Source: Eggerthellales bacterium (GTDB taxonomy: Bacteria > Actinomycetota > Coriobacteriia > Coriobacteriales > Eggerthellaceae). From it: a DNA stretch of 64,000 bases. The first letter of the stretch is position 1. Every line of letters begins with the position of its first letter. The translations under genes and the position numbers were made by a program. Below, in pieces: positions 9,433 to 42,351 of this stretch. The stretch is from contig JAQXTF010000067.1 in the NCBI GenBank assembly GCA_029219345.1, forward strand, positions 1-64,000, read 5' to 3'. The notes under the pieces were generated by a model. It made no database searches. It was not told the origin of the DNA and worked only from the letters and a program-made list of their open reading frames with translations.

Positions 9433-9630
9433 ATGTGTTATCAGTGCTTTGGATGCGGTAAATGTTTGCCCGAGGAAGAGCGCAAGAATCTGAAGCCCAA
9501 ATGCCCTGCATGCAAAGCCGAATTGGAAGAAGGCGTGAAGTTTTGCCCCAAGTGCGGCATGTATATTCGCCCCAAAGCGGGCAGTCTTTTGGTTAAGAAA
9601 CCAAAACCCGCACAAAAAGCTGAAGCATAA
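9433..9630 (+). CDS. Small zinc-ribbon protein, MCxxC type (family member 1)
   Basis: A 65-residue cytosolic protein with four Cys pairs: MCYQCFGCGKC at the N-terminus, then CPACKA and FCPKCG, and a Lys/Pro/Ala-rich tail. The CxxC pairs should bind zinc as a double zinc ribbon. Related small proteins beginning MC[F/Y] occur at 13226 (minus), 13627 and 20509. The start follows AGGGGGAC. It stands alone, ending in a bidirectional terminator shared with the opposing LuxR-type regulator. No function can be assigned from sequence; a role linked to the neighbouring redox genes is inferred only from co-location. Confidence 0.7.
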   Translation: MCYQCFGCGKCLPEEERKNLKPKCPACKAELEEGVKFCPKCGMYIRPKAGSLLVKKPKPAQKAEA

Positions 9631-9660
9631 AAAATGGCCCCTAAGAAACGGGGCCATTTT
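9631..9660. terminator. Bidirectional terminator between zinc-ribbon gene and LuxR gene
   Basis: Perfect 11-bp stem AAAATGGCCCC / GGGGCCATTTT flanked by A and T runs, working in both directions. The stop codon of the minus-strand regulator lies at its inner edge (9641-9643). Confidence 0.85.
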
Positions 9661-10072
9661 CGTATTTGGTGAGCAGTTGCTTCAATTCATCCATGGAATG
9701 AATGTCCAATTTTTTAAAAATATTGTACTTATGAGCTTTTACCGTGGCCTTTGATAAATTCAAGGAGTTGGCGATATACGAAGGATTTCGCTCGTTGGAT
9801 AGAAAGCGAAGAATATGTCCCTCGCGCTCGGTAAGATTATATTCGCGTTCAAGGGTCATGATGGCCTCTTTGCGCTTTCCGGGAACATCGCCTCTGATAA
9901 TATCGTAGAGCGGCGTGCCTGAACGAGAATATTCAATCTCATCCAATGCGTCGATCATATCAATAATTGCGTGTGCCATAGCTTGCTTATCTTTCGTTCC
10001 GGCAAGGTATTGAGGCACGGTTACATAGGCAATTGCGCTGAAATTTAGTACATCCTGCTCGATATTTTTCAT
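9641..10072 (-). CDS. LuxR-type HTH transcriptional regulator
   Basis: A 143-residue DNA-binding protein. The C-terminal half is a LuxR/GerE helix-turn-helix (LTEREGHILRFLSNERNPSYIANSLNLSKATVKAHKYNIFKKLDIH, about residues 80-125). The N-terminal 75 residues form a short acidic domain with no recognised fold and no phosphoacceptor signature. Eggerthellaceae often place such regulators beside substrate-specific oxidoreductase operons, so control of the adjacent molybdoenzyme operon is a reasonable inference. It lies downstream of that operon on the same strand but is separated from it by a terminator, and its gene ends inside a bidirectional terminator. Confidence 0.8.
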   Translation of the reverse strand: MKNIEQDVLNFSAIAYVTVPQYLAGTKDKQAMAHAIIDMIDALDEIEYSRSGTPLYDIIRGDVPGKRKEAIMTLEREYNLTEREGHILRFLSNERNPSYIANSLNLSKATVKAHKYNIFKKLDIHSMDELKQLLTKYENGPVS

Positions 10073-10136
10073 GAACCCTCTTTAATAGGTGCTCTTTCAA
10101 TAATGCGGATTGTAACAAAAAAAAAGAAAAAATTGG

Positions 10137-10170
10137 CAAAAAAATGGCCGCCCCATAAAGGGGCGGCCAT
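10137..10170 (-). terminator. Rho-independent terminator of the left molybdoenzyme operon
   Basis: Perfect 11-bp stem ATGGCCGCCCC / GGGGCGGCCAT followed in the minus direction by TTTTTTT. It lies 33 nt after the ferredoxin gene and separates the operon from the LuxR gene. Confidence 0.9.
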
Positions 10171-10202
10171 CCAAAGTAGCTATTACGCCACTAAGCTAAA
10201 AC

Positions 10203-10538
10203 TTAGGGCAGGTAAACAGCAACCTTGTTGCTCTTGCCAGCCAGGGCCTTGCCGATTTCGTCAACCTTGACGATTTCCATGCAGGCACCCAGGCAGTGCA
10301 GAACGCAAGGAGCGGTCTTGCCTTCAGCCAGACGATCAGCGCACAGGTCGCACAGATCGGAGGGTACGGGGACGTAGTCCCAGAGCCACTTGCCGTTGCT
10401 CATCTTGATGGGACCCATCTCATTAATCTTAATACCCCACTCGGTCAGGGGCATCTTCTTTTCATTGCGGCAAGAAACTTCACAAGCATGGCAGCCAGTG
10501 CAGTACTTGTACTCAATAAGCATTGCGTATTCGGCCAT
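10203..10538 (-). CDS. Short ferredoxin-type electron-transfer subunit (two 4Fe-4S clusters)
   Basis: A 111-residue iron-sulfur protein, the expected electron-transfer partner of the molybdoenzyme directly upstream. Cluster ligands are visible as Cys13, 16, 19, 23 (YCTGCHACEVSC) and Cys63, 66, 78, 82. DmsB/NrfC-type beta subunits are usually about 200 residues with four clusters, so this is a shortened form with only two. No signal peptide. The start codon lies 2 nt after the upstream stop and follows GGAGGCAT, so the two genes are translationally linked. A close counterpart sits at 16522. Confidence 0.88.
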   Translation of the reverse strand: MAEYAMLIEYKYCTGCHACEVSCRNEKKMPLTEWGIKINEMGPIKMSNGKWLWDYVPVPSDLCDLCADRLAEGKTAPCVLHCLGACMEIVKVDEIGKALAGKSNKVAVYLP

Positions 10539-10540
10539 GA

Positions 10541-12886
10541 TTATGCCTCCTGTCCATCACGAGTAATGTCCCAAGCAGCGGGATCGGTACCAATTGCGCC
10601 TTCTTCAGTGTCGGGAGACATGGTGCCGAATGCATCCAGGCCATCGACCTTGTAGATCTTGCAGCAGACGTTCTTGAAGGGAGCACCAAAGCCGATGCGG
10701 CCGATTGCACGGTGGGGGATCAGGCTGTTGATGTTGGACTTCCAAACACCGTTCAGGTTGGGAGCCTCGGCGTCCTGCTCGGGGTACCACCAACCATGCT
10801 GAGCATGAATGGTGCGAGGATCAACGGTGGGGGTAACCTGAGCCTTCTCGATTGCCTTGCCCAGAGGATTCTCGATGCATACCCAGTCGCCGTCTTCGAT
10901 GCCGTACTTGGCAGCGGTCTCGGGGTTGATCTGAACCAGAGGATTGGGCATGATGGCGCGCAGAGAAGGAATCTGGCGATGCTCAGAGTGGAAAGAGGTG
11001 GTCTCACGACCGCCGGTGATCATAACCAGAGGATAGTTTTCCTTCAGGTCCTCACGACCGGGGGTGTAGGGAGTCATCTTGTTCTCTTCGAAGTAAGGCA
11101 GAGGATCCTCGCCCCAGTCAGCGTACAGGGAGGACTGAAGTTCTACCAGACCAGTGGGGGTGTTGAAGCCGGGGTAACCGTCGGAACGCAGCAGGCCCTT
11201 CTCGTACTTCTTGTACTCGAACGGCATCATGAACCAGCCTTCTTCCTGCAGGTCTTCGAAGGTCTTATCAACGCCGCCGTTGTGCAGCTGCTCGGTGAAG
11301 AAGTCAGCTACGTTGTCCCAAGGCCATGCAGAGGGGTTCAGGCGCTTGCCAACCATGAAGTCAATCTCGAGGTCGGACTTGCAGTCGCCAACTTCGACAA
11401 CCTTGTTCATAGCCATAACCATATGAGTGTTACGGCCGAAGTGAGGCAGAACCATGCCGTCATGCTCAGCAAAGGTGGTAACGGGGAGGAACAGGTCGCA
11501 CAGGCCCATTGCGGTGGGGGTCATGAAGACGTCCTGTACAACGTTGAATTCCATCTTCTCCAGAGCCTTGAACCAGCGCTTGCCCTGAGCATTGGTGGTG
11601 TTGGCGATGCCGTTGGTGGCATAGAACCAAGCCATCTTCAGAGGATAAGGCTTGCCAGACTCCAGAGTGTCCAGGATGCAGTCGGGGTGAGCGATAACGT
11701 GAGCAGCCTGGAAACCACGGTACTGAACCAGGTCGGTGATCTGCTTGTCCATCATGCCCTCAGGCAGCTGCTGAGCGCACTCGTAACGCCACTTGCCCAT
11801 GAAGGAAGCGGGAACAGCCAGGGTAACGCCACCAGGAACATCCAGGTCGCCCAGGATGGCAGCCAGGATCAGGAAGCAGTGGCCAGCCTGAACACCATTG
11901 GAGTTGGTGTCGATAGCCAGACCCCACATCCAAGAAGAGGGATGTGCAGCAGCAACTGCGCGGGTAGCCTCAGCGATCAGGTCAGCGGGAACCCAAGTGA
12001 TTTCCTCAACCTTGTCCAGAGGATACTCAGCGGCGCGCTCCTTCAGCTCTTCAAAGCCGTAGCACCAGTTCTCAACGAAGTCATGATCGTACAGGTCTTC
12101 CTGAATGATCACGTTGATCATGCCCAGACCCAGAGCAGCGTCGGTACCAGGACGGAGCTGCAGATGATACTCAGCATGAGCAGCGCACCAGGTGACGCGG
12201 GGGTCAACAACGATGAGCTTGGAGCCGAGCTTCATCAGGTCGATGATGGTGTGACCAAAGAAGCCGTCGGGGTTGGAGAACAGAGGATCCTTGCCCCACA
12301 GAACGATGTAGTTAGGACGCTCCCAGCGAGGATCGTCGAAACGATCGGGGAAGTATGCTGCGTAGTCCAGCTCGGGATAGCCTGCACCCAGGATGAAGTC
12401 AGCAACGGAGCAACGGGGGCCGTAGCAAGAGTCGCCAGACATGGGGAAGCAGGAGTTGGGGGTACCCAGAGCAGCGTAAGCCAGAGGAGTCTTGTACAGA
12501 GTTGCCTCACGGCCGGTGCCCTGGAAAGCTACGATAGCTTCAGCGCCGTAGTTAGCCTTGATGTAGTTGACGCGCTCTTCGATGATGTCCAGAGCCTCGT
12601 CCCAAGAGATAGCCTCCCACTTGTCCTTACCGCGGTCCTTAGGATCACGCTTCAGCGGGGTAAGAATACGCTTTTCGTTGTACATGTACTCAGGAAGAGT
12701 CAGGCAACGAACGCACAGACGGCCCTTAGTGATGGGGTGATCGGGATCGCCCTCAACATTAACAACCTTGCCGTCCTTTACGGTCAGGTACATACCGCAG
12801 CCTACGGGATGGTCACCAGGAGGGGACCAAGCGCAGGTACGACACTTAAAAGTACCGTCGCCGCAATCGATTCTTCTTTCCGACAT
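10541..12886 (-). CDS. Cytosolic molybdopterin oxidoreductase, catalytic subunit
   Basis: Bis-molybdopterin guanine dinucleotide enzyme of the DMSO reductase superfamily, 781 residues. It shows an N-terminal iron-sulfur region with Cys15, 18, 30 and 58 (spacing 2, 11, 27; also Cys8 and Cys61), the fold block GEGDP-like VEGDPDHP, WDEALDII, HLQLRPGTDAALGLGM and a C-terminal molydopterin-dinucleotide binding part (GGRETTSFHSEHRQ, INPETAAKYGIEDGDWV). Cys154 in SCYGPRC is a candidate Mo ligand. No Tat signal, so it is cytosolic. It most resembles the acetylene hydratase / transhydroxylase / catechol dehydroxylase branch; the substrate is unknown. ATG 12886 follows GAGGAGAG. Operon: zinc ribbon, this gene, ferredoxin. 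Confidence 0.88.
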   Translation of the reverse strand: MSERRIDCGDGTFKCRTCAWSPPGDHPVGCGMYLTVKDGKVVNVEGDPDHPITKGRLCVRCLTLPEYMYNEKRILTPLKRDPKDRGKDKWEAISWDEALDIIEERVNYIKANYGAEAIVAFQGTGREATLYKTPLAYAALGTPNSCFPMSGDSCYGPRCSVADFILGAGYPELDYAAYFPDRFDDPRWERPNYIVLWGKDPLFSNPDGFFGHTIIDLMKLGSKLIVVDPRVTWCAAHAEYHLQLRPGTDAALGLGMINVIIQEDLYDHDFVENWCYGFEELKERAAEYPLDKVEEITWVPADLIAEATRAVAAAHPSSWMWGLAIDTNSNGVQAGHCFLILAAILGDLDVPGGVTLAVPASFMGKWRYECAQQLPEGMMDKQITDLVQYRGFQAAHVIAHPDCILDTLESGKPYPLKMAWFYATNGIANTTNAQGKRWFKALEKMEFNVVQDVFMTPTAMGLCDLFLPVTTFAEHDGMVLPHFGRNTHMVMAMNKVVEVGDCKSDLEIDFMVGKRLNPSAWPWDNVADFFTEQLHNGGVDKTFEDLQEEGWFMMPFEYKKYEKGLLRSDGYPGFNTPTGLVELQSSLYADWGEDPLPYFEENKMTPYTPGREDLKENYPLVMITGGRETTSFHSEHRQIPSLRAIMPNPLVQINPETAAKYGIEDGDWVCIENPLGKAIEKAQVTPTVDPRTIHAQHGWWYPEQDAEAPNLNGVWKSNINSLIPHRAIGRIGFGAPFKNVCCKIYKVDGLDAFGTMSPDTEEGAIGTDPAAWDITRDGQEA

Positions 12887-12986
12887 AATCTCTCCTCTCA
12901 TTCTTTCTCTACGTACATTTATTACAGTCGTCTCAGACTTGGATATAAGAGTGAAACGGGTCTGCTAAAAGGAATCCTGCTATTAA

Positions 12987-13226
12987 TTAAGCAACAGGCG
13001 GCTTGGGTGCTGCGGGAGCAGCAGGAGCGGCAGGTGCTGCGGGAGCAGCAGGAGCGGCAGCTGCGCCAGGCATGGGAGCGGGCTCGAGATCTTCAAAGCC
13101 TTCAGTGGAGCACTTGCAGAAGGGGCACTTGCTGGGCAGTTCGCCGTTTACACGATTGATACGCTTGCCGCATTCGGGGCACAGCACGGGGCCGTTGCCA
13201 CCAGCTTCAGCCGGTCTAAAACACAT
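12987..13226 (-). CDS. Small zinc-ribbon protein with Ala/Pro tail, MCFRP type (family member 2)
   Basis: A 79-residue protein beginning MCFRPAEAGG, then a zinc ribbon (VLCPECGK and KCPFCKC), an acidic linker and a 30-residue tail made almost only of Ala and Pro (repeats of AAP). The tail is encoded by an exact 27-bp tandem repeat. The ATG follows GGGAGG. It is the promoter-proximal gene of the left molybdoenzyme operon and is divergent from a second MCFRP gene at 13627. Position suggests a role in maturation or organisation of the molybdoenzyme or its Fe-S partner (inference); no function is established. Confidence 0.72.
   Translation of the reverse strand: MCFRPAEAGGNGPVLCPECGKRINRVNGELPSKCPFCKCSTEGFEDLEPAPMPGAAAAPAAPAAPAAPAAPAAPKPPVA
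13006..13059. repeat. Two exact 27-bp tandem repeats in the zinc-ribbon tail
   Basis: Positions 13006-13032 and 13033-13059 are identical 27-mers beginning GGTGCTGCGGGAGC. Each encodes nine Ala/Pro residues on the minus strand. In-frame gain or loss would change tail length without breaking the gene. Confidence 0.9.
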
Positions 13227-13626
13227 AATGAATCCTCCCTATTTGTTTACACAAACTACTTAGTAAGAAAAAGTGAGGCAAGTAAGAACGCATACGAATC
13301 CCCTACTTTTCTATAACCATACAATATACCTACTTTGCATAATTAACTAGTATGAAATTCCCCAGAAAATAAACCTTTTAAAAAGGCGGTACCATCAGGC
13401 TCTTTTTGGGCAAAATGAAGAAAAATCTCAATTGAACTGGTAATTTAAAAGTATTAGAAAAGGATGGATTATCTAATAAAATAGTACTATTCTAAACCAA
13501 GAATAGGTGGCAATTTTATTGAAGCAGGGGTAAAAAAGTATATACTTCTGATAGATGCTATTTTTGGCAGGCTAGCATTTAGAATCTGCTAGCCATTTGT
13601 AAGAGACTCTAATAGGAGGTTTTATT
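13227..13626. promoter_or_regulatory. 400-bp divergent control region with several dyads
   Basis: AT-rich, non-coding spacer between the two divergent MCFRP zinc-ribbon genes, and so between the two molybdoenzyme operons. It contains the perfect palindromes ATAGTACTAT (13481-13490) and AAGTATATACTT (13536-13547), the dyad CTATTC-N8-GAATAG (13487-13506), an imperfect CCTTTTAAAAAGG (13374-13386) and a hairpin GGCTAGCA / TGCTAGCC (13570-13577 with 13587-13594) in the probable leader of the right operon. The first three are candidate operators. No coding sequence was recognised. Confidence 0.55.
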
Positions 13627-13839
13627 ATGTGCTTCAGACCTGCAGCAGCAGAAATGGTAAACAAGTGCCGCGAGTGCGGCGCTGAGGCCCCCCTTGATCT
13701 GACCGAATGCCCCGAATGCGGCGCTGAGCTGCCTAAGGTTCCCGGTATGGGTGCTCCTGGTGCCCCCGGCGTTCCTGGCGTTCCCGGCGTTCCTGGCGTC
13801 CCCAGTGTTCCTGGCGCTCCTGGCGCTCCCACCAAGTAA
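13627..13839 (+). CDS. Small zinc-ribbon protein with collagen-like tail, MCFRP type (family member 3)
   Basis: A 70-residue protein starting MCFRPAAAEM, then KCRECGAE and ECPECGAE (zinc-ribbon CxxC pairs), then a tail of nine consecutive Gly/Ser-X-Pro triplets (GVPGVPGVPG and variants) ending in PTK. The coding DNA of the tail is a run of near-identical 9-bp units. The start follows AGGAGG. It heads the right molybdoenzyme operon exactly as its divergent twin heads the left one. The collagen-like tail is too short for a stable collagen helix on its own and may be a flexible or protein-binding tether (inference). Confidence 0.72.
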   Translation: MCFRPAAAEMVNKCRECGAEAPLDLTECPECGAELPKVPGMGAPGAPGVPGVPGVPGVPSVPGAPGAPTK

Positions 13840-13889
13840 GTTCTGCTTTAAAGAACAGCTGACCATTAAATTGGTCCTTTCAGCACGAT

Positions 13890-13908
13890 CCCATGGCTTG
13901 TCCATGGG
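13890..13908 (+). other. Intercistronic hairpin before the right molybdoenzyme gene
   Basis: Perfect 7-bp stem CCCATGG / CCATGGG with a 5-nt loop, extended by CAC/GTG pairs, in the 122-nt gap between zinc ribbon and molybdoenzyme. There is no T-run, so it is more likely a processing or stability element than a terminator. Confidence 0.45.
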
Positions 13909-13961
13909 GGAGTGCTTAGGAAATAGAGAAAGTTTTAGAGAGAAAGCAAAAGGAGGAGAAA

Positions 13962-16490
13962 ATGGACTACCGCGAATTCCTGGATTCGATAGACCGCAAG
14001 GCCTACCACGAAGGCGAATGGCGCTGGCAGGAAGGCGATCTCACCGTTACCCGTACGAATCACTGGTCACCCCCGGGTTGCCACAACGGCTGCGGCGTTC
14101 TTCTGTCCGTTGACAAGGACGGCAAGCTGGTTCACATCGAAGGTGACCCGCTGTCTCCGTTTGCAGGCGGCAAGCTGTGCATGCGCTGCCTGGACATGGT
14201 AGAGGCTGTAAATCACCCCGACCGTCTGAAGTACCCCTTGAAGCGCGCCGGCGAGCGTGGCGAGAACAAGTGGGAGCGCATTACTTGGGATGAGGCTTAC
14301 GATATCATCGTGGAGAAGGTCAACTGGATCAAGGAGAACTATGGTTCTCACACCATCATCTTCGACCACGGCACCGGCCGTAACATCGGTTGGCAGCTGC
14401 CTCTGTTCGCTTCCACCGCTTTGGAAACCCCCAATGTTTGCAACTTCGGCTTCACCGGTTTTGCTTGCTATCTGCCCCGTATGATCGGTGCTTCCGCCAA
14501 GATGGGCGAGATGACCATCATCGACGTTTCCGAGACCCACGAGCTGCGTTACGCTGCTCCCACCTTCCGTCGTCCTGACATCTGCGTTGTTTGGGGCAAT
14601 GAGCCTCTGAAGTCCAACGCTGACGGCTTCCTGGGCCACTGGATTGTTGAGTGCATGCAGTACGGCACCAAGATCATCTGCATCGACCCCCGTCTGACCT
14701 GGCTCGCATCTCGTGCTGAGGTTTGGTTGCAGCTCCGTCCCGGCACCGACGCTTGCATCGGCATGGCCATGCTGAACGTCATCATCGCCGAGGACCTGGT
14801 TGACCACGAGTTCATTGATAATTGGACCTATGGCTACGAGGCTCTGGTTGAGTCCGTTGCTGACAAGACCCCCGAGTGGGCTGCTGAGATCTGCGGCGTT
14901 GCTGCTGAAGATATCGTTAAGGCTGCTCGCCTGTACGCAAACGCAGAATCTGCTTGCATTCAGTGGGGCCTGGCCTTCGAGCAGCAGCTGTCTGCTCTGG
15001 GTGTTACCGCTGCTGCTTGCGACCTGATGGGCGTGACCGGCAACATCGACAACCCCGGCGGCAACCTGCTGATCAAGTGCGCATTCGATATCGAAAAGCG
15101 CTACGGCCTGGGCGACTTCAAGATTCCTCGCGAAGAGTACGCCGGCAAGATGACCCTGTCCGCAGGTATTGAATCCTCCGACATCGTTGCTTGCGCTGCT
15201 ACCGACCCGCTGATGCTGGCTGTTGAGACTGGCGAACCCTTCCAGCCTCAGATGCTGTGGATCGAATCCGCTAACCCCCTGGCTTGCTCCGGCATGGACG
15301 CACCTCGTATGTACGAGTGCCTGAAGAAGATCCCCTTCGTTGTTGTGGCCGATCCCTTCATGACCCCCACCGCCGTTGCTGCTGCCGACATCGTCCTGCC
15401 CGTTGCCATGAGCTGCGAGCGCAACGCTGTTCGTACTTGGTGGACCCCCGCTCGTTCCATCTCCAAGTGCACCAGCTACTATGAGGCTAAGTCCGACGAG
15501 CAGATCATCCTGGATCTGGGCCGCAGGCTGAAGCCCGAGAACTGGCCTTGGAAGGACGACAAGGAACTGTCCACTTGGTATCTTACCGACCAGTACGCCA
15601 AGGAAGGCACCCGCTACGAGGGCGACTTCGAAGAGCTGCAGGCACGCGGCGGCTTCAAGTACGATCCTTGGGACTCCGAGTACTACAAGTACAAGAAGGG
15701 CATGTGCCGTCCTGACGGTCAGCCTGGTTTTGACACTGCTACCGGCCGTTTCGAGTTCTGGTCTTGGGGCTACAATCACTGGGGCGTTGACCCGATGCCT
15801 TACCACGTCGAGCCCAAGGACTCCCCCGTGTCCAACCCCGAGCGCTTCAAGGAATATCCCTTCGTTGCTACCTCCGGTGGCCGCTCCTACGAGTTCTTCC
15901 ACTCCGAGCATCGTCAGCTGGAGACCATGCGCGAGTTCCACCCCTATCCTCTGGTAACCATCAACCCCGAGGCTGCCGCCGAGTACGGCATCAACGATGG
16001 CGACTGGGTATGGATCGAGACTCCTCACGGCCGTTGCCGCCAGAAGGCATTCCTGTTCCCCGGCATCAAGAAGGACACCATCCACATGGAGCATGCATGG
16101 TGGTATCCCGAAGAAGAAGCCGCTGAGCCCAGCCTGTTCGGCGTATTCGACTCCAACATCAACAATATGACCCTGAACTTCGAAACCGGCCAGGGTGGTA
16201 TTGGTTCCGGCATCAAGAGCTTCCTGGCAAAGATCTACAAGTACCAGGAAGGCGACCAGATGCCTGGCGTTAAGGTTACCCGCGAAGGCGGCTGGATGGA
16301 CTACATCCCTGGCGTTATGGCTGGTGACAAGGAATCTGCTGAGAAGCGCGCTGCCGAAGGCAACGAGTACCTGCAGAAGCAGCTCGAGAACGCACGTCGC
16401 GTCCAGAACCTGAAGGTTGAAGACGCCGACATGCAGGGTCGTAATGCTCTGGAGTACGCTAAGGAGCACGCCGACGAGGTTATCCGTTAA
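13962..16490 (+). CDS. Cytosolic molybdopterin oxidoreductase, catalytic subunit (paralogue)
   Basis: DMSO reductase superfamily enzyme of 842 residues, homologous along its length to the product of 10541-12886. Shared blocks include WSPPG, WDEAYDIIVEKVNWIK, LQLRPGTDACIGMAMLNVII, FFHSEHRQLETMREF and INPEAAAEYGINDGDWV. The N-terminal cluster region differs: Cys40, Cys44 and Cys73 are present (CHNGCGV, KLCMRC) but the first canonical Cys is replaced (TRTNHW), so the cluster is incomplete or unusually ligated. Cys169 in ACYLPR is a candidate Mo ligand. No Tat signal. Best fit is the transhydroxylase / catechol dehydroxylase-like branch. Strong ribosome site AAAGGAGGAG. Confidence 0.88.
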   Translation: MDYREFLDSIDRKAYHEGEWRWQEGDLTVTRTNHWSPPGCHNGCGVLLSVDKDGKLVHIEGDPLSPFAGGKLCMRCLDMVEAVNHPDRLKYPLKRAGERGENKWERITWDEAYDIIVEKVNWIKENYGSHTIIFDHGTGRNIGWQLPLFASTALETPNVCNFGFTGFACYLPRMIGASAKMGEMTIIDVSETHELRYAAPTFRRPDICVVWGNEPLKSNADGFLGHWIVECMQYGTKIICIDPRLTWLASRAEVWLQLRPGTDACIGMAMLNVIIAEDLVDHEFIDNWTYGYEALVESVADKTPEWAAEICGVAAEDIVKAARLYANAESACIQWGLAFEQQLSALGVTAAACDLMGVTGNIDNPGGNLLIKCAFDIEKRYGLGDFKIPREEYAGKMTLSAGIESSDIVACAATDPLMLAVETGEPFQPQMLWIESANPLACSGMDAPRMYECLKKIPFVVVADPFMTPTAVAAADIVLPVAMSCERNAVRTWWTPARSISKCTSYYEAKSDEQIILDLGRRLKPENWPWKDDKELSTWYLTDQYAKEGTRYEGDFEELQARGGFKYDPWDSEYYKYKKGMCRPDGQPGFDTATGRFEFWSWGYNHWGVDPMPYHVEPKDSPVSNPERFKEYPFVATSGGRSYEFFHSEHRQLETMREFHPYPLVTINPEAAAEYGINDGDWVWIETPHGRCRQKAFLFPGIKKDTIHMEHAWWYPEEEAAEPSLFGVFDSNINNMTLNFETGQGGIGSGIKSFLAKIYKYQEGDQMPGVKVTREGGWMDYIPGVMAGDKESAEKRAAEGNEYLQKQLENARRVQNLKVEDADMQGRNALEYAKEHADEVIR

Positions 16491-16521
16491 TAACGAACTC
16501 TAAGAAAAGGAGGCGAAAGCC

Positions 16522-16875
16522 ATGACTAAAGCAATTCTCGTCAACCTCGAATACTGCACGGGTTGCCACTCTTGCGAAGTAGCTTGCAAGAAGGAGCTTG
16601 GTCTTCCCAAGGGCGAGTTCGGTATCAAGGTGACCGAAGTTGGCCCCTTCAAGTACAGCGAGCGCGAGGCCGTAAAGGACAAGTGGGAGTGGACCTACTC
16701 CCCCGTCATCACCCAGGCCTGCGACATGTGCGAAGCACGTACCGCTATCGGCAAGATGCCCATGTGCGTCCAGCACTGCCAGGCATGGTGCATGTACTAC
16801 GGCGAGGCTAGCGACCTGGTTGCCAAGATGGACAACCAGAACCGCTGGGCTCTGCTCACCAACAAGGAAGCCTAA
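16522..16875 (+). CDS. Short ferredoxin-type electron-transfer subunit (two 4Fe-4S clusters)
   Basis: A 117-residue partner of the molybdoenzyme just upstream. Cluster ligands are Cys12, 15, 18, 22 (YCTGCHSCEVAC) and Cys67, 70, 82, 86 (ACDMCEA, MCVQHC). Like its counterpart at 10203 it is about half the length of a DmsB-type subunit and lacks the other two clusters. The start follows AAGGAGG. The stop codon lies inside an 8-bp hairpin (16871-16892) that begins a long structured spacer before the MFS gene. Confidence 0.88.
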   Translation: MTKAILVNLEYCTGCHSCEVACKKELGLPKGEFGIKVTEVGPFKYSEREAVKDKWEWTYSPVITQACDMCEARTAIGKMPMCVQHCQAWCMYYGEASDLVAKMDNQNRWALLTNKEA

Positions 16876-17228
16876 TTACACTGTTAATTAGGTAAAAGGG
16901 TGTGGGTGTTCGGGAAGCCGGATGCCCACACCTGATAAACGATTTGTGTTCTATCATGTGCAAACAATATTTAATATGTGTTGTTTTCGTGATGCATAAG
17001 TCGTATCATTCGGTATAGGAATTATTTCTAACCGGATGGTTTTCTGCCGTTATTGATGATCGCTTTGGTGATCGTCAATGATGACAGAAGGGGATTTACT
17101 TTAGGAAGCCAGGTTCCTTGGGCTTTCTAAAGACCAAAAGGAAGGAAATGTTCCTACTTTTGGAAGGTATTTCTGGGGAGCGTTGAACCCCTGAAATATG
17201 GAAAATGTCACTTTTTTTAGGAGGGAAA
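16871..17228 (+). ncRNA. Hairpin-rich leader or intercistronic RNA before an MFS gene
   Basis: 354 non-coding bases with six successive hairpins: 16871-16892 (CCTAATTA stem); 16899-16932 (GGTGTGGG stem plus inner 5 bp); 17042-17089 (22-position stem, one C-A mismatch, loop TTTG); 17101-17130 (10 bp); 17134-17163 (7 bp plus 5 bp); 17168-17198 (10 bp, one mismatch). The last is followed by a T-run and the ribosome site AGGAGGG. Repeated GGAA/TTCC blocks at 17104-17163 allow alternative pairings. No T-box sequence or known riboswitch was recognised. Whether transcription starts here or reads through is unknown. Confidence 0.55.
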
Positions 17229-18482
17229 ATGGCAAAAGAAATTCAACGCGATGAGCAGGGTCGCCCGATTTACGGCGCAACTGTTCAGATCGCAGCCCTG
17301 CTGGTTATTACCATGCAGTACGTGCAGTCTTTCGTATCTCCTGCACTGGGCACCGTTCGTAAGGCTTACGCTGGTATCGGCGTAAACGACACCGACATTG
17401 CTAACATTCAGGGTATTCCTTCTCTGATGGCAATCTTCGGTTCTATTCTGGTTGGTGTTTTGGAACGCTTCCTGAAGAAAAAGACCATTTTGGCTATCGC
17501 TCTGGTCCTGATGTTCGGTGGCTCTCTGGCTGGTCTTTGCCCCGAAACCGAGACTGGTTTCACTATGCTGTTGGGCACCCGCGTTATGCTGGGTCTTGGC
17601 CGTGGTATGATCTTCCCCATGGCTTCTTCTTTCATTGCTGACCTGTTCTTCGGCGCTCAGAAGGCTCGCCTGATGTCTTGGAAGACCGCTGTTGGCGGCC
17701 TGTCCGGCACCCTGTTCCAGACCATCGGTGGTCTGCTGGCTGTTATGTCTTGGCGTTATGCATTCTTCGGCATGCTGATGTGGGTACCTATTGCTATCCT
17801 CTGCCTGGTATGGCTGAAGGAGCCCGAAGTAAAGAAGGCTGGCCAGGCTGAAGATGGCACCAAGGGCAATGCTTTGAAGTCCATCTCCGCTGCCGCTTGG
17901 GTTATGTTCGTAATCTTCGGTATCTGGAACATCTTCCAGTTCGTATTCATGGGCAATGCTACCTTGGTTATCAAGGACATGGGCCTGGGCGAGTCCGACA
18001 TCGCTGGTTACATTATGTCCTTCGAGACTGCAATGTCCGCTGTTGGCGCTCTGCTGTACCCCTTCTGGCGTGGTAAGGTCGGCGGCTTTGACATGGTCAT
18101 CGCTATCGCCGGTGAAGCTCTTGGTTACACCCTGATCGTGACCATGGGTTCCTCTACTCCTATGTTCCTGCTGGGCACCGCTCTGTACGGCCTCGGCTTT
18201 GGTACCTTCAACCCCATCCTGATTCTCCAGCTGGTTCACGTACTGCCCAAGGAAGGCGCTACTCTGGGCCTGGCCCTGCTGTCCGGCGCTCAGAACTTCT
18301 GCCAGTTCTTGTCCGCTAACGTTCTGGCTATGGTTGGCGCAAAGACCGCTATCCAGAAGTTCGAATTCGCTATGTACGGTGCATGGTTCTACTTCGTAAT
18401 GATCCTGGTTATCCTGGTCGTTCTGAAGATCAAGGCTCCTCAGCTGATCGCTACCCTGAACGTTAAGGCTCAGGAAAAGTAA
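17229..18482 (+). CDS. MFS transporter linked to the right molybdoenzyme operon
   Basis: Inner-membrane carrier of 417 residues with about 12 membrane segments. It shows MFS-type turns between segments 2 and 3 (VGVLERFLKKKTI) and LGLGRGMIFPMASSF in segment 4-5. Last gene before a strong terminator. Position suggests import of the molybdoenzyme's substrate or export of its product. ATG 17229 is chosen because AGGAGGG lies directly before it; an ATG eight codons earlier precedes the ribosome site and is unlikely. The long hairpin-rich spacer upstream suggests separate post-transcriptional control. Confidence 0.87.
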   Translation: MAKEIQRDEQGRPIYGATVQIAALLVITMQYVQSFVSPALGTVRKAYAGIGVNDTDIANIQGIPSLMAIFGSILVGVLERFLKKKTILAIALVLMFGGSLAGLCPETETGFTMLLGTRVMLGLGRGMIFPMASSFIADLFFGAQKARLMSWKTAVGGLSGTLFQTIGGLLAVMSWRYAFFGMLMWVPIAILCLVWLKEPEVKKAGQAEDGTKGNALKSISAAAWVMFVIFGIWNIFQFVFMGNATLVIKDMGLGESDIAGYIMSFETAMSAVGALLYPFWRGKVGGFDMVIAIAGEALGYTLIVTMGSSTPMFLLGTALYGLGFGTFNPILILQLVHVLPKEGATLGLALLSGAQNFCQFLSANVLAMVGAKTAIQKFEFAMYGAWFYFVMILVILVVLKIKAPQLIATLNVKAQEK

Positions 18483-18521
18483 GAATTTCCGAATAGGAAA
18501 TCCTAGTTCTTAAATGAACGA

Positions 18522-18561
18522 ACTCCCCTCGATATGAAAAATGGTCGGGGGGAGTTTTTAT
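18522..18561 (+). terminator. Rho-independent terminator after MFS gene
   Basis: Stem AACTCCCCTCGA paired with TCGGGGGGAGTT, followed by TTTTTAT, 40 nt after the stop codon. Confidence 0.85.
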
Positions 18562-18639
18562 ACCTATGCATTCGTAATAGACTGGTAGAATAGGTAGTTA
18601 CAAAGAGTATGCTTATAGGCATTAATTAGGAGGGAAATT

Positions 18640-19110
18640 ATGGCTCGTAAGCACTATTCGGAAATGACGCCCGAGCGCAAGAAGGAGCTGCGAAAACAAT
18701 ATCGCAATCCGCCCACTCGTGAGTATCAACAGATGCGCGTCTTGCGTGTTGCTCTTCTCTGCTTGGCGCTTCTGTGCGCATTCGCCGCATCTCCCATCTC
18801 CTTTGTTCCGGAAGCATACAGATTTGCCTTTGTTGTCATTGGCAACTTGCTTGTTCTTGCTGCAATTCTTCTAGACGTATTTAAGATGCGCAGCATGCGT
18901 GAAGAATACATTGATGAGAATCTCAACAAGAATCGTAAAGAAGCCACCAGAGCTCAGAAAGCTTATAAGCAGCGCTTGAAGGAAGAGGCTGCGGCAAAGG
19001 TTTCTCTTGAAGAACAGCTTATGAACGATGAAGAGCTGTCTTACTGGGAGAAGTTGAAGCTTCGAGCAAAGTTGAGCGCGCAAGAAGCGCAAAAAGATCC
19101 GCGCGAATAA
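18640..19110 (+). CDS. Two-TM protein with charged coiled-coil tail, unknown function
   Basis: A 156-residue membrane protein with a basic N-terminus (about 32 residues), two membrane helices (about 33-52 and 62-80) and a highly charged Lys/Glu-rich C-terminus (about 88-156) predicted by eye to be helical or coiled-coil and cytosolic. I do not recognise the family. The start follows TAGGAGGG. It is the first gene of a five-gene operon with an OFA-type carrier, a zinc ribbon, an Hda-like ATPase and a UroD-like methyltransferase; only 31 nt separate it from the carrier, so it may be an accessory or anchoring subunit (inference). Confidence 0.65.
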   Translation: MARKHYSEMTPERKKELRKQYRNPPTREYQQMRVLRVALLCLALLCAFAASPISFVPEAYRFAFVVIGNLLVLAAILLDVFKMRSMREEYIDENLNKNRKEATRAQKAYKQRLKEEAAAKVSLEEQLMNDEELSYWEKLKLRAKLSAQEAQKDPRE

Positions 19111-19141
19111 CACCAGGGAGATAATCCGGGGGAGGAAACTC

Positions 19142-20431
19142 ATGAAGCTGGTCAAAGACGGACTGTTTCTTGGGAAGATTGAGTATTGTTGGGTTATTGC
19201 GGTCGCCTGCGGCTTGTTGCAAGCTTTCGGTATGGGATTGATTCTCAACTGCAGTAGTTTATTCTATGTTTACATCTGCGATGATATGGGCTTTTTGAGA
19301 GCTGATATCTCCACGTATATGACCGGATATTTTATAGGAACAACCATTTTTACCCCTATTGCCGGTTTCTTGCTTTCGAAGCTTGATATTCGAAAGGTTA
19401 TGTTTGTTGCAATTCTGACCCTTTCGGGATCGGTAATTGCTATGAGCTTCTACAACGAAATTTATCAGTGGCAGATTTCCGGCTTTTTGGTTGGTTCTGC
19501 TGGTGCCTGCATTTTCGTATTGCCTAGCGCTTCAATGATTGGCAACTGGTTTGTCAAGCGCCGCGGTACGGTGTATGGCATTGTTATGGCGTGCTCCAGC
19601 ATTTCTGCGGCATTCATGGCTCCTATTTTGAACAGCATTATTTCCGCGAGTGGATGGCGTACGGGCTATCTGTTTGTTGGTATTGCTGCTCTGATTGTCA
19701 TTGCTCCCTTGTGCCTGGTGTTTAGGTACAAGCCTTCTGATATTGGTTGCAAGCCTTATGGCGGCGACGAAATTGACGAAGAGTCCAACAAGAGGCAGAA
19801 GTTAGGCGTAAAAACAAAGGTTGCCATTGGAACCGTTTCCTTCTGGTGCCTGTTTATCTTCGCTGGCATTGCTTCCTTCAACCATGGCGGCGTTGAGCAG
19901 CATATTCCTGGCTACATGGTGCAGCTTGGCTTGGGTACGGCCTTCGGTGCTACCGTTGTTTCTGCTCAAAGCGCTGGTTCGGTAGCAGACAAATTTATCA
20001 TGGGCTGGTTGAACGACAAAATTGGTGTTAAGCGCACCACCATCGTTGAACTGATTGTGATTATGCTGGGTTTGGCGGGCTTTATATTTACCCGTGAACC
20101 CATTTTGCTGATTATTTCTGCTGTTGCCTTTGGCGTGCAAGATTCGCTTATGTCTGTTAGCTTGCCGCTGTTGATTCGCGAGATCTTCGGCAATAAATAT
20201 TACACCCAGATTCACGGCCTCATTCGTGCGGGTGTAGGCGTTCTGGGCACGTTCTCTGGCGTATTTGTTGGTTGGATCTATGACACTACGGGCATGTTCC
20301 AGCCGGCATTTGCAATTTTGATTGCGCTCTTTATATTTGATCTATTCTGCGTTTTCGCAGCGTATAGTTTTGGTAAGAAAATTAAGTGGGAAACCCCTGA
20401 AGGCGAAATTGCCATCAATGCAAATAAGTAA
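19142..20431 (+). CDS. MFS transporter, oxalate/formate-antiporter-like (OFA)
   Basis: Inner-membrane carrier of 429 residues. It opens with a helix containing QAFGMGLILNCSSLFYVY and continues with ISTYMTGYFIGTTIFTP, SASMIGNWFVKRRGTVYG and FNHGGVEQHIPGY, typical of the OFA branch, which exchanges small carboxylates. It is a close paralogue of the carrier at 29317-30609: same length, and most of these motifs are shared. Second gene of the 18640-22471 operon, so it probably moves the substrate or product of the downstream UroD-like enzyme. The substrate is unknown. Confidence 0.85.
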   Translation: MKLVKDGLFLGKIEYCWVIAVACGLLQAFGMGLILNCSSLFYVYICDDMGFLRADISTYMTGYFIGTTIFTPIAGFLLSKLDIRKVMFVAILTLSGSVIAMSFYNEIYQWQISGFLVGSAGACIFVLPSASMIGNWFVKRRGTVYGIVMACSSISAAFMAPILNSIISASGWRTGYLFVGIAALIVIAPLCLVFRYKPSDIGCKPYGGDEIDEESNKRQKLGVKTKVAIGTVSFWCLFIFAGIASFNHGGVEQHIPGYMVQLGLGTAFGATVVSAQSAGSVADKFIMGWLNDKIGVKRTTIVELIVIMLGLAGFIFTREPILLIISAVAFGVQDSLMSVSLPLLIREIFGNKYYTQIHGLIRAGVGVLGTFSGVFVGWIYDTTGMFQPAFAILIALFIFDLFCVFAAYSFGKKIKWETPEGEIAINANK

Positions 20432-20508
20432 CCTTCAAGGTGATTAGTAACCTTATTTGAAGTTTACTGTTATAGCTTCGGGTTTAGCGTTATAAAGGAT
20501 GGAGTTGT

Positions 20509-20715
20509 ATGTGTTACACGTGTACGCATTGTAACCAATGCGGTTTGTATTCAACCAGAACCGAATTAAGGTGTGCTGAATGCAATACCGAGATTCCCAT
20601 TGGCGTAGGTGCTTGTCCCAAATGTGGATGTAAGAAGATTGTTGCCGTTCAGGTTGAAAATGCCCCAGCGCGTTCGCATGCCTCTACGTTAAAGCCGAAT
20701 ATAGTGAATGGGTAG
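20509..20715 (+). CDS. Small zinc-ribbon protein, MCxxC type (family member 4)
   Basis: A 68-residue protein beginning MCYTCTHCNQCG, followed by LRCAECNTE and ACPKCGCKK, so four or five Cys pairs able to bind two zinc ions or another metal. It has a non-repetitive tail, unlike members 2 and 3, and most resembles member 1 at 9433. It sits between the OFA carrier and an Hda-like ATPase gene (7 nt downstream), again inside an operon built around a metabolic enzyme. Function unknown. Confidence 0.7.
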   Translation: MCYTCTHCNQCGLYSTRTELRCAECNTEIPIGVGACPKCGCKKIVAVQVENAPARSHASTLKPNIVNG

Positions 20716-20722
20716 GTTTTAA

Positions 20723-21388
20723 ATGTATACACACAGCGATTTCATTGTAATGAGGGAGAACCGAGACGCTTTTGAGAAGATGAAGGCACTCCTTGATGCA
20801 GGAGTTGGCAATCTGGTAATTTACGGCCCCGAAGGCAGTGGTAAGACCCATATGATTTCGGTTGGTGCAGAAATTGCCGAGAAGGATGGCAAGGTTATTC
20901 CTACCGCCGCAATTATGCTGCGTATGGATTTGGATTTGGATGACGACTTCTTTGACATGCTGGGCACTATTCCCGCACTGTTCATCGACGAAGTTGAAGC
21001 TGCCGTTGAGCATCCTGCGACCGCAAAATTGCTGGAGTTGATGATTGCTGAGCGCAATCGCCTTGGTTTGCTGACGGTGTTCGCTTCACGCCAGACCCCC
21101 GAAGAGCTTGGTCTGACCGATCTGGCTGCTGCAATGAGCGATTTTCAGGTAGCACATATTGAACCTATGGGTGACGATATTCTTGAGAGGTCTGTTACCG
21201 CTTTGAGGGAACAGCTCCCCGCAAAGGAAGGCCGCACCATTAGTGACGAAGCATGCAAGTATCTTGCTGCAACGTCTAAGTCGCTCACCGAACTGAAGAA
21301 CAAGGTGAATTTCCTTTTGATGTTCGCCGATGTGGACCCCAATACGGTGATTGATGAAGCTATTGTGAGAGAGCTGATTAACCGATAA
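20723..21388 (+). CDS. DnaA/Hda-like AAA+ ATPase in a methyltransferase operon
   Basis: A 221-residue P-loop ATPase: Walker A GPEGSGKTH (about residues 34-42), Walker B LFIDEVE, sensor-1-like FASRQTPEELGL, and a C-terminal lid with ISDEACKYLA. The order and spacing match the AAA+ domain of DnaA and Hda, but there is no DnaA domain IV for DNA binding. Replication-type roles are improbable here: the gene lies 7 nt after a zinc-ribbon gene and 30 nt before a UroD-like methyltransferase. A chaperone or loading role for that enzyme is my inference. The ribosome site (GGGTAGG) is weak, so the start at 20723 is tentative. Confidence 0.7.
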   Translation: MYTHSDFIVMRENRDAFEKMKALLDAGVGNLVIYGPEGSGKTHMISVGAEIAEKDGKVIPTAAIMLRMDLDLDDDFFDMLGTIPALFIDEVEAAVEHPATAKLLELMIAERNRLGLLTVFASRQTPEELGLTDLAAAMSDFQVAHIEPMGDDILERSVTALREQLPAKEGRTISDEACKYLAATSKSLTELKNKVNFLLMFADVDPNTVIDEAIVRELINR

Positions 21389-21418: not shown

Positions 21419-22471
21419 ATGGCAAATCTGTATGACGTTTCTTCGGATTCGCGTTATGCATTCGAAGGCGACAAGATGACCATGCGCGAGAATGCAATGG
21501 CAATTCTCCGCGGTGAGCAGCCTGAGTATTATTTCGACATCATGAGTGCTGCAGTTATCGTTCCCGATCCCCATTTCATTGCATGCGCTATTCCCAAAGA
21601 CGGCGAACTGCACGTTGACCCCTGGGGCGTTACCCGCTGCTTCCCCGTTGGCGCTCCTGGCGCACATCCCTTCATTACCGATGAGAACAAGGTAATCAAG
21701 GACATTGAGGACTGGCGCGAGCAGATCATCCTTCCTCCTGTTGAGGGTCTTGACTGGTCCGCTGCTAAGGCTAAAGCTGACAGCGTTGACCGCACCGCTA
21801 AGTTTGTCTGCCTGTTCAGCGCCACCGGCCTGTTCGAGCGCAGCCATTTCCTGATGGGCATGGAAGACGCATTCTGCTCTTATCTGGAAGATCCCGATGA
21901 GATGTACGAAATGTTGGAAGCTGTTTGCGACTGGAAGATTCGCTACATCCACGAGGCAGCTAAGCAGATTCATCCTGACATGATCTTCTATCAGGACGAC
22001 TGGGGCTCCAAGCAGAACCTGTTCCTGCCTCCCAACGTTTGGCGCGAGATCATCAAGCCCCTGCACACCAAGATCGTTGAGGCCGCCCATGAAGAGGGCA
22101 TGCTGTTCGTTCATCATGCAGACTGCATCTGCGAGCCCATCGTTGAGGATATGTGCGAGATGGGTATCGATGTTTGGGCTGACGTTATTCCCCAGAATGA
22201 CATCGTTGCCATTAAGAAGATTGTCAATGGCCGCATGTGCCTGAAGGGTGGCGCAGACTGTCCCGTGATTGACTCCGATAGCGTTTCTGAAGAAGAAGTT
22301 ATTGCTGAGATCCATCGCGTTATTGATACCTACTGCCCCGGCGGTTACTTCTATCCTGCACTGAGCAACTCCACCTTGTACAACAGCCCCCGCAATGACG
22401 CTCTGGCTAAGGCTGAGCTGAAGCGCTATGGCCGTCAGTGGGCTCAGGAGCATCCTGACTTCAACAAGTAA
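21419..22471 (+). CDS. Uroporphyrinogen-decarboxylase-like (MtaA-type) methyltransferase, copy 1
   Basis: A 350-residue TIM-barrel protein of the UroD/MtaA/CmuA superfamily. Landmarks: YYFDIMSAAV, HVDPWGVTR, FYQDDWGSKQNLFLPP, the metal-site strand VHHADCICEP, and GIDVW. Superfamily members that are not haem enzymes move methyl groups between corrinoid proteins, thiols or aryl methyl ethers. True UroD has a different N-terminal active-site signature, so a haem role is unlikely. The product of 22606-23655 is a close paralogue encoded convergently. Ribosome site AAAGGAGAG. No corrinoid protein gene is nearby. Confidence 0.8.
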   Translation: MANLYDVSSDSRYAFEGDKMTMRENAMAILRGEQPEYYFDIMSAAVIVPDPHFIACAIPKDGELHVDPWGVTRCFPVGAPGAHPFITDENKVIKDIEDWREQIILPPVEGLDWSAAKAKADSVDRTAKFVCLFSATGLFERSHFLMGMEDAFCSYLEDPDEMYEMLEAVCDWKIRYIHEAAKQIHPDMIFYQDDWGSKQNLFLPPNVWREIIKPLHTKIVEAAHEEGMLFVHHADCICEPIVEDMCEMGIDVWADVIPQNDIVAIKKIVNGRMCLKGGADCPVIDSDSVSEEEVIAEIHRVIDTYCPGGYFYPALSNSTLYNSPRNDALAKAELKRYGRQWAQEHPDFNK

Positions 22472-41105: not shown

Positions 41106-41144
41106 AATGAGACACTTTGCCCTGAGCCAAGTGTCTCATTTTTT
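41106..41144. repeat. REP-like palindrome, single unit, doubling as terminator
   Basis: 12-bp stem AATGAGACACTT / AAGTGTCTCATT (41106-41117 with 41129-41140), loop TGCCCTGAGCC, then TTTT. The unit TGAGACAC...TGCCCTGAGC...GTGTCTCA recurs at 42387-42474. Confidence 0.8.
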
Positions 41145-42351
41145 ATAGGTCGGGGCGGAAGCGGCGGTATAGGGTGAAGATGATGACCAGGCTCACCACG
41201 GTGATTGCTGTGAAAATCACGTAAGACACCAGGTAGGAGCCGCATAGGTCCATGAGGGGGCCGGGCACCAGGCTGAACAGGAAGCCGCCCAGGCTGTAGG
41301 CCACCTGCACGTTTTTCACCGTGGTGGTCAGGGTTTCAGGGGAGGCCAGCTCCATGCTCCACAGCGAGATACCCACCGAACCCAGGGTGATGCCGAAGCC
41401 GAAGAGAATGGCGGCCGCAAAGGGGAACACCTGGTTGGTGCCGCTAAAGCAAGCGAGCACCAGGCCGGCAAGCATGGTGCCGTACAGCACCAGCGACCCG
41501 CGCAGGGTGCCAATGCGATCCACCACAAAACCGCTGATGAACTTGCCAAAAGTCAGGGCAAAGCCCAGCGCCGAAACAACGCTGGCGGCGTGCAGCGGTG
41601 AAATGCCCTGAGAGGTGAGCAGCAGGGAGAAGTAGTTGGTGCCGTCGATGGCGCCGCCGCCCAGCAGCACGGTGCCCACAAAAAGGGCTGCCATGGCCAC
41701 TTTTGGCAGGGGCTTGGTTGCGGGCGTATGCTCCGAGGCCTTCGACTGGGGCTTGTTGCTGCGGAAGGGCTCGCGTCCCATTTGGGCGGGGTCGTCGCGC
41801 AGCAAGGCGAAAATGATGGCGGCGAAAAGCAGCGCCAGAGCTCCTTCGAAGCGAAAACCCCAGGCCAGGGATGTGCCTTCCACAATGCGGGCGGCAATAG
41901 GGGGCAGCACCAGCGACGAGATGCCGCTGCCCATGGTGGCAATGCCCACGGCTGTTCCCACGCCGGTGGCGAACCAACGGCGAGTGACCAGGGCCACAAT
42001 GACCGTGCCGCCCAGGCCGTTTCCGGCGCCCAGCAGCACAGCGCCTGCGAAGAATTCCAGCAGCGTGTCGGCCAGGGAATATAGGAAAAAGCCCACGCCG
42101 GTCATGGCGGAGGCGGCAGTGGCTGCCTTCCGCGCGCCCAGGCGATCAACGAAGCGGTTCACGAAAAGCAGGCAGGTTAGGGAAACCAGGGTGCGAAAGG
42201 AAATGATTAGGGAGCTGCCTGTGTTGCCCACGTCGGGCAGGGCCGCCAGATAGGGCATAAAAACGCTGAACGACGTGCTGGGCAGGCCGATATTCACGAA
42301 GAAAAGCAGGAAGCAACACAGGCATATAAGGCGTTCGTAATGGTTTTTCAT
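41143..42351 (-). CDS. MFS transporter, tandem paralogue A
   Basis: Inner-membrane carrier of 402 residues, about 12 membrane segments, starting MKNHYERLICLCCFLLFFVNIGLPSTSF. Loop motif NRFVDRLGARKAA. It is colinear with, and very similar to, the adjacent gene product (42466-43671), so they arose by tandem duplication. The gene is flanked by related palindromes at 41106 and 42387. It resembles monocarboxylate or drug MFS carriers; the substrate is unknown. Ribosome site GTGAAGGT is moderate. A 114-nt spacer occupied by the long palindrome separates it from the upstream copy. Confidence 0.85.
   Translation of the reverse strand: MKNHYERLICLCCFLLFFVNIGLPSTSFSVFMPYLAALPDVGNTGSSLIISFRTLVSLTCLLFVNRFVDRLGARKAATAASAMTGVGFFLYSLADTLLEFFAGAVLLGAGNGLGGTVIVALVTRRWFATGVGTAVGIATMGSGISSLVLPPIAARIVEGTSLAWGFRFEGALALLFAAIIFALLRDDPAQMGREPFRSNKPQSKASEHTPATKPLPKVAMAALFVGTVLLGGGAIDGTNYFSLLLTSQGISPLHAASVVSALGFALTFGKFISGFVVDRIGTLRGSLVLYGTMLAGLVLACFSGTNQVFPFAAAILFGFGITLGSVGISLWSMELASPETLTTTVKNVQVAYSLGGFLFSLVPGPLMDLCGSYLVSYVIFTAITVVSLVIIFTLYRRFRPDL

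Follow-up and report, generated by a model that had tools for sequence, protein, structure and literature searches.

A family of small zinc-ribbon proteins linked to soluble molybdopterin enzymes in gut and acetogenic anaerobes

Accessory proteins have been described for several oxidoreductases that carry the bis-molybdopterin guanine dinucleotide (bis-MGD) cofactor. The redox enzyme maturation proteins (REMPs) NarJ, TorD and DmsD (PF02613) are all-helical proteins of ~200 amino acids (aa), each encoded beside, and dedicated to, one bis-MGD enzyme that is exported by the twin-arginine translocation (Tat) system or anchored in the membrane. FdhE is likewise an accessory protein and not a subunit; it has CxxC knuckles, contacts the catalytic subunit and is needed for specific bis-MGD enzymes (PMC10609526). 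In Eggerthella lenta the dedicated accessory genes of the dopamine (catechol) dehydroxylase, DadhD-I, are essential for activity, most of them without effect on expression (PMC11887054), a requirement which shows that enzymes of this sort depend on helpers. Our literature search, which covered few subscription papers, found chaperones for exported enzymes and none described for the soluble class, nothing tying zinc ribbons to soluble bis-MGD enzymes, and no small zinc-ribbon partner of Gp Hcdh, pyrogallol transhydroxylase AthLS or acetylene hydratase. Here we describe a previously unnamed family of zinc-ribbon proteins of certain gut and acetogenic anaerobes, starting from a 64-kb stretch of an Eggerthellales bacterium genome (contig JAQXTF010000067.1, positions 1–64,000; hereafter the window) in which four such proteins are encoded. 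Loci and genomes used for comparison carry L and G numbers, respectively.

An earlier note on this DNA had listed proteins of 65–79 residues with an MC[F/Y] start at 9433, 13226 (minus strand), 13627 and 20509 and had treated them as one family. All four open reading frames (ORFs) are present as listed and they are related over the zinc ribbon, but they form two related subfamilies rather than a single uniform one: type A (13226, 13627) and type B (9433, 20509). Type A proteins (45–130 aa) start with M-C-[FYW]-R-P, continue with a zinc ribbon of two CxxC motifs (CxxCG-x~10-CxxCG) and usually end in a disordered Pro/Gly/Ala tail; M1, C2, R4, P5, C14, C17, C28 and C31 are invariant in an alignment of 55 sequences. 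The two window members, rightly said to share MCFRP, both begin MCFRPA and have tails of Pro/Ala/Gly repeats. Type B proteins start with MCYxCxxCxxC, which is followed by the ribbon (CxxC...CxxC), and ten columns are invariant among 17 aligned sequences, all eight Cys included. The match between the type A and type B profiles is confined to the zinc ribbon (hhalign 95%).

The AlphaFold2 model of type A has a zinc-ribbon core (pLDDT ~80), a disordered tail and no helix. The best Foldseek matches are RanBP2/NZF fingers and ribosomal protein L40e (probability 0.85–0.98, weak E values of 0.09–0.5), which, at the modest confidence of the model, are read only as 'zinc ribbon'. By its CxxC-x10-CxxC spacing and predicted fold, common to RanBP2/NZF ribbons (PF00641) and Pfam zinc-ribbon_1/_3, the type A core is modelled as an ordinary RanBP2/NZF-type ribbon, to which the invariant MC[FY]RP start and the Pro/Gly/Ala tail are added. 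Among the four window proteins only 9433 exceeds a Pfam cut-off; none of them matches PF02613, and no match to the FdhE family was found in Pfam or NCBIfam. Three other assignments were considered and rejected. For HypA, the best PF01155 score is 16.7 bits against a cut-off of 28.9 and the protein starts with MCFRP, not with the MHE nickel motif; similarity to LysW is far below the cut-off; and rubredoxin (PF00301) gives no match, its CxxC-x~29-CxxC spacing differing from the x10 found here.

For the survey, loci were picked by a DNA pattern that covers the N-terminal residues and two CxxC pairs, blind to the neighbouring genes, with the reversed pattern as control. In the source genome MC[FY]...CxxC...CxxC has nine matches, against none for the control. 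Also without control matches, the type A pattern (MC[FY]RP...CxxC...CxxC) is present in 47 of 398 Coriobacteriia genomes, which represent 31 of 153 genera and hold as many as 20 copies each, and the type B pattern in 16 of the 398. Type A is also carried by 14 of these 16, so that type B, a second, related class whose role is less clear, is almost confined to type A genomes and is often encoded at type A loci. When one genome per species was scanned, at least 119 matches were obtained; among those listed nearly all are from Coriobacteriia, the others belonging to several Sporomusa species, Peptococcaceae, Desulfuromusa kysingii and one other Deltaproteobacterium. In a sample of the phylum of Sporomusa, 4/299 genomes had a match, Sporomusa itself included; the G611 match in that sample looks spurious, and a 350-aa MCFRP-GTPase on a Lachnospiraceae contig and a match in Franconibacter look like chance hits to the pattern.

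Genes around type A loci were called with a codon model, since antisense ORFs of molybdopterin oxidoreductase genes otherwise pass as genes. The test proposed in the earlier note, enrichment of neighbouring genes across Coriobacteriia, showed that placement is not random: a molybdopterin oxidoreductase gene lies no more than 5 kb from 113 of the 134 distinct type A proteins, no more than 2 kb from 97 and no more than 1 kb from 76, and just four of those flanked by 3 kb or more of sequence on each side have none. Under assumed, generous random rates of ~20% (5 kb) and ~8% (1 kb) the binomial probability is below 1e-46, to be read with the reservation that related loci are not independent. The association of type A with genes of soluble bis-MGD enzymes is practically certain. 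With MC for the small protein, Moly for the oxidoreductase and Fd for the ferredoxin subunit, typical gene orders are MC-Moly-Fd, Moly-Fd-MC and AthL-like-AthS-like-MC; Moly-Fd-MC is also seen in Sporomusa and in another Bacillota genome.

The type A partners are of one kind, soluble bis-MGD enzymes without a Tat signal. The Tat-exported or membrane-anchored clients typical of REMPs are not found here: none of 110 full-length linked enzymes has a twin-Arg motif (0/80 in cluster 1, 0/30 in cluster 2), and in the two genomes sampled all Tat-bearing molybdo genes lie away from MC genes. Cluster 1 (~778 aa, 105 members) comes with a ferredoxin of ~114 aa, and cluster 2 (~886 aa, AhtL-like first domain) with an AthS-like subunit of ~267 aa (Fer4_11 and CarboxypepD_reg). 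Among characterised enzymes Gp Hcdh, AthLS and acetylene hydratase are relatives of these partners, MolyB of the window resembling acetylene hydratase and cluster 2 resembling AthLS.

Genome content follows the same division. In about 110 genomes of the family, tallied by hand, the small ferredoxin and type A occur together in 35, the ferredoxin alone in 4, type A alone in 2 and neither in 69 (Fisher p=8e-22), and their per-genome counts are correlated (r=0.89). Over 13 genomes the type A count follows the small ferredoxin (rho 0.93) and not the total of molybdo genes (rho 0.52, p=0.07). Genome G007 has only two units of the ferredoxin type, and both hold a type A gene (L060, L061). In L060 the order is LuxR, a trigger-factor C-domain protein, MC, Moly, Fd, a second zinc ribbon and MFS. 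Gp Hcdh is reported to be encoded, close to a LuxR regulator, in Paraeggerthella hongkongensis RC2/2 A (PMC11585353); the LuxR-linked L060 is a likely candidate for the Gp Hcdh locus. Pairing was assessed on 93 MC-enzyme pairs from 48 genomes against 300 within-genome permutations. Where two enzymes shared 60% identity or more, the MC protein encoded with one was matched best by that of the other in 134 of 147 cases, compared with a null mean of 54 and a null maximum of 87, which shows that an MC gene is stably co-inherited with its own enzyme.

We tentatively favour, at a little under an even chance, the view that type A proteins are dedicated accessory proteins for the assembly or maturation of soluble, cytoplasmic, Tat-less bis-MGD enzymes. 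The helper role, the binding and the step served are what we infer from the conserved linkage to one enzyme class and from cognate pairing. Clients would be the enzymes with a two-cluster ferredoxin of ~114 residues (Gp Hcdh/acetylene-hydratase-like) or with an AthS-like subunit (pyrogallol-transhydroxylase-like), and type A would fill the position that NarJ, TorD or FdhE holds for exported enzymes. The ribbon and the N-terminal motif may bind the cognate apo-enzyme or its folding machinery, with the Pro/Gly/Ala tail as a flexible arm, and the catalytic subunit would thereby be kept competent for insertion of Fe-S clusters and bis-MGD and for pairing with the ferredoxin. NZF fingers are usually protein-binding modules, and an adaptor or assembly role is for that reason favoured over metal transfer. 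Genes for FKBP-type isomerases or for trigger-factor-like proteins, the latter either complete or consisting of the C-terminal domain alone, lie at most five genes away in 28 of 134 type A loci, which fits a cytosolic folding role without being decisive; in the Sporomusa operon no trigger-factor gene was left once genes were called by codon usage. The earlier note had suggested an undescribed metallochaperone, delivery factor or scaffold placed beside metalloenzymes. An undescribed accessory factor is still the best reading, while metal or cofactor delivery is unsupported, a generic zinc ribbon being the one metal site seen, and the placement holds for soluble Tat-less bis-MGD enzymes rather than for metalloenzymes in general.

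Type A differs from the known helpers in several ways. FdhE has four CX2C motifs that bind iron and serves only periplasmic formate dehydrogenases, whereas type A has two CxxC motifs and Tat-less partners, and NarJ/TorD/DmsD have no sequence or fold relation to type A. Genome G085, which we take to be E. lenta DSM 2243-like, encodes 17 TorD proteins and has no match to the type A or type B pattern. At the position of DadhE its TorD operons have acidic proteins of 270–316 aa without CxxC; DadhE was accordingly rejected as a family member, and the essential DadhE of the dopamine dehydroxylase cluster is most likely a different protein from MC. TorD-type helpers for exported enzymes and MC proteins for soluble ones look like complementary systems.

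Several observations weigh against the accessory role. The model of type A is of modest confidence (pLDDT 64). At a minority of type A loci (L041, L056, L059, L064, L066) the neighbours are UroD, FAD, VOC or transporter genes and no molybdo gene is seen. The MCFRP zinc-ribbon module is fused to two VOC/glyoxalase domains in Sporomusa (L147:4412-5272, L164:6905-7765) and, in Raoultibacter timonensis (L086:1602-3254, minus strand), to a portion of an FAD enzyme. Neither these copies nor the fusions fit a molybdo-only helper, and VOC genes are frequent direct neighbours of type A in AthL-like units. Because of these copies, fusions and neighbours the family should not be restricted to molybdenum. 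Some enzymes of the ferredoxin type have no adjacent MC gene and genome G089 has 34 ferredoxin against 12 MC genes, which would require either that an MC protein assists several enzymes or that some enzymes do without one. Finally, physical linkage alone predicts cognate pairing, which is no proof of contact.

Codon and RNA features of the MC genes were also recorded. The Arg at type A codon 4 (13636-13638 in the window) is AGA or AGG in 32 of 32 unbiased cases, these codons making up 21% of Arg codons at positions 2–8 of other genes and 8% further in; among the matches listed, from GC-rich genomes, there are ~147 AGR against 3 CGN. The wobble bases of Cys2 and Phe3 vary freely, and the pattern suggests selection on the rare Arg4 codon itself. 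Between the stop codon of the ferredoxin/FeS gene and the start of a downstream MC gene, an RNA fold with z < -2 was found in 25 of 33 loci (e.g., L037, L038, L039, L051), which suggests a separate dosage of the small protein.

Operon position, cognate pairing and specificity for one enzyme class would fit equally well if the protein were a third, very small structural subunit, its ribbon, of a protein-binding type, docking on the catalytic or the ferredoxin subunit. Gp Hcdh was purified natively and described as having two subunits (PMC11585353), although a 7-kDa protein is easily missed; the stable fold upstream of downstream MC genes hints at a different dosage, and MC-rich genomes hold fewer MC than ferredoxin genes. 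A subunit is thus an unlikely reading, but one to be kept in mind. A general adaptor or scaffold of inducible catabolic units (molybdo, flavin, UroD, VOC), in which enzymes would be held to a shared partner by way of the ribbon and the Pro-rich tail, would account for the copies beside UroD (L041), FAD enzymes (L041, L066) and VOC genes, for both kinds of fusion and for the several other small zinc-ribbon types in the same units. At least 84% of the copies are molybdo-linked, however, genome content tracks the soluble ferredoxin, and MC proteins are absent from E. lenta, where LuxR, FAD and molybdo units are numerous, which makes such a general adaptor rather improbable. A wider version is doubtful too: a plug-in system in which NZF-type microproteins (types A and B and the further variants C and D) would connect many catabolic enzymes of unrelated kinds (molybdo, flavin, corrinoid-methyl, VOC) with one folding or assembly hub of trigger-factor and FKBP paralogues, through the shared N-terminal FRP element and the low-complexity tail. 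If true, these would be bacterial adaptors comparable in logic to the eukaryotic NZF adaptors.

Delivery of metal, sulfur or Fe-S clusters (as a metallochaperone or a sulfur carrier), for which Met1 would be removed to expose Cys2, is suggested by the invariance of M1, C2 and the four ribbon Cys in type A and of eight Cys in type B, and by the sub-threshold similarity to HypA and LysW. We judge it quite improbable, given that structural Zn2+ accounts for the ribbon, that both similarities are far under the cut-offs and that variant D (GGFRPPP...WKC) retains FRP and has no Cys2. A small regulator whose binding target would be nucleic acid or a LuxR-type regulator of the unit is very unlikely: the genes are often first in the operon with LuxR genes nearby, and the constrained Arg4 codon and the upstream RNA structures hint at a regulatory layer, but the same LuxR-type regulation operates in E. 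lenta, which lacks MC proteins, a DNA-binding fold is not seen and the tail is neither basic nor conserved. Two CxxCG knuckles beside redox enzymes recall a rubredoxin-like electron carrier, which is hardly credible for a protein that leaves PF00301 unmatched and has the x10 spacing of zinc ribbons and RanBP2/NZF and L40e as best folds.

Variant D, a zinc ribbon of the form (M)xxQxKGGFRPPPLGKILW[KR]CxECxTFN..., is encoded by the last gene of type A operons; FRP is kept and the N-terminal MC is absent. Other small Cys-rich proteins, starting with MPNCRTCSPWCDRC..., MPGGCWxCNPLCGKC... or MSCYMCLPTCDNC..., occur in or near type A units (Table 1). Large FtsX/MacB-type permease genes lie 5' of type A in three loci (L095:3246-6710, L173:827-4279, L041:1-1920). 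In Sporomusa (L144:160-4670, minus strand; L153:3911-7998) the MC-Moly-Fd operon goes on with NuoF-like genes (Nuo51, NADH_4Fe-4S), which suggests an NADH-linked soluble molybdoenzyme complex.

In the 64 kb of the window no other small proteins with an ATG-TGY start (at least 45 residues, with CxxC) were found besides the four in Table 1, and a Shine-Dalgarno-like stretch lies just 5' of each of their genes. The surroundings given for them in the earlier note were confirmed. The two type A genes are divergent, back to back and ~400 bp apart, and each opens an operon that continues with a molybdopterin oxidoreductase and a small ferredoxin: 13226, MolyA, FdA and LuxR on the minus strand, and 13627, MolyB, FdB and the MFS transporter on the plus strand. 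The divergent pair is also present in L045 and in Gordonibacter pamelaeae L137, the order MC-Moly-Fd-LuxR in L045, and the orthologue of 13226 is the head gene of the MolyA orthologue in L045, L050 and L137. An MFS transporter of the same cluster follows the MolyB orthologue in L137 as well. The likely start of MolyA gives ~781 aa without a Tat signal, FdA is one of six ferredoxins of its type in the source genome, and the best solved relative of MolyB is acetylene hydratase 2e7z.

Downstream of the type B gene at 20509 come an AAA ATPase gene and a URO-D-family gene, an arrangement corresponding to the UroD-like methyltransferase operon of the earlier note, and the B-AAA order is kept in L219 and L221. 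The other, at 9433, is flanked by an MFS-apbE pair on one side and a LuxR gene on the other; its orthologues, MCYQC[FS]GCG[KR]C, are present in other genomes. Hda/DnaA-like AAA ATPase genes lie repeatedly beside type A or B genes, in addition to the window at L050:5260-5985, L060:11693-12448 (minus strand) and L067:8651 (minus strand). Elsewhere in the window two adjacent minus-strand genes (41143-42351 and 42466-43671) encode very similar membrane proteins, both starting MKNHYER[LV]ICLCCF..., apparently a recent tandem duplication.

Table 1. Small Cys-rich proteins and neighbouring genes in the window, with related small proteins at other loci
Feature	Position	Strand	Evidence and remarks
Type B protein (MCYQCFGCGKC... 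and zinc ribbon), 65 aa	9433..9630	+	ORF list; Zn_Ribbon_1/3 above Pfam cut-off; convergent to LuxR gene
LuxR-type regulator gene	9641..10072	-	directly 3' of FdA gene
FdA, soluble-type ferredoxin subunit (CTGCHACE...), 111 aa	10203..10538	-	ORF and profile match
MolyA, molybdopterin (bis-MGD) oxidoreductase, 786-aa ORF	10541..12901	-	PF00384, PF01568, PF04879
Type A protein MCFRPAEAGGNGPVLCPECG...CPFCK..., Ala/Pro tail, 79 aa	12987..13226	-	heads MolyA operon
Type A protein MCFRPAAAEMVNKCRECG...CPECGAELP..PGAPGVPG tail, 70 aa	13627..13839	+	heads MolyB operon; alignment, fold model
MolyB, molybdopterin (bis-MGD) oxidoreductase, 842 aa	13962..16490	+	no Tat signal; profile match
FdB, soluble-type ferredoxin subunit, 117 aa	16522..16875	+	profile match
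MFS transporter	17205..18482	+	3' of MolyB-FdB
Type B protein (MCYTCTHCNQCG... and zinc ribbon), 68 aa	20509..20715	+	ORF and type B alignment
Hda/DnaA-like AAA ATPase	20723..21388	+	TIGR03420 1.3e-14, below cut-off; 7 bp 3' of type B gene
URO-D (MtaA/CmuA-like) methyltransferase-family gene	21419..22471	+	PF01208 2.1e-10
Variant D (GGFRPPP) copies	L060:4599-4829(-), L078:1898-2128(-), L171:2881-3108(-), L174:7580-7816(+), L093:3481(+)		
Other small Cys-rich proteins	L037:8698(-), L106:2922(-), L152:5004, L174:922(-), L120:3605		

Soluble bis-MGD enzymes such as Gp Hcdh process polyphenols of the diet in the human gut, and enzymes related to this class are difficult to produce in active form in standard hosts; genetic tools are available for Gordonibacter urolithinfaciens (PMC11887054). 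The missing part may be supplied by the small gene that stands beside many of the soluble enzymes and reaches 20 copies in a genome. If the accessory role holds true, a co-expressed protein of 70 residues could open many uncharacterised dehydroxylases and transhydroxylases to study, and the type A gene would serve as a genome marker for such enzymes.

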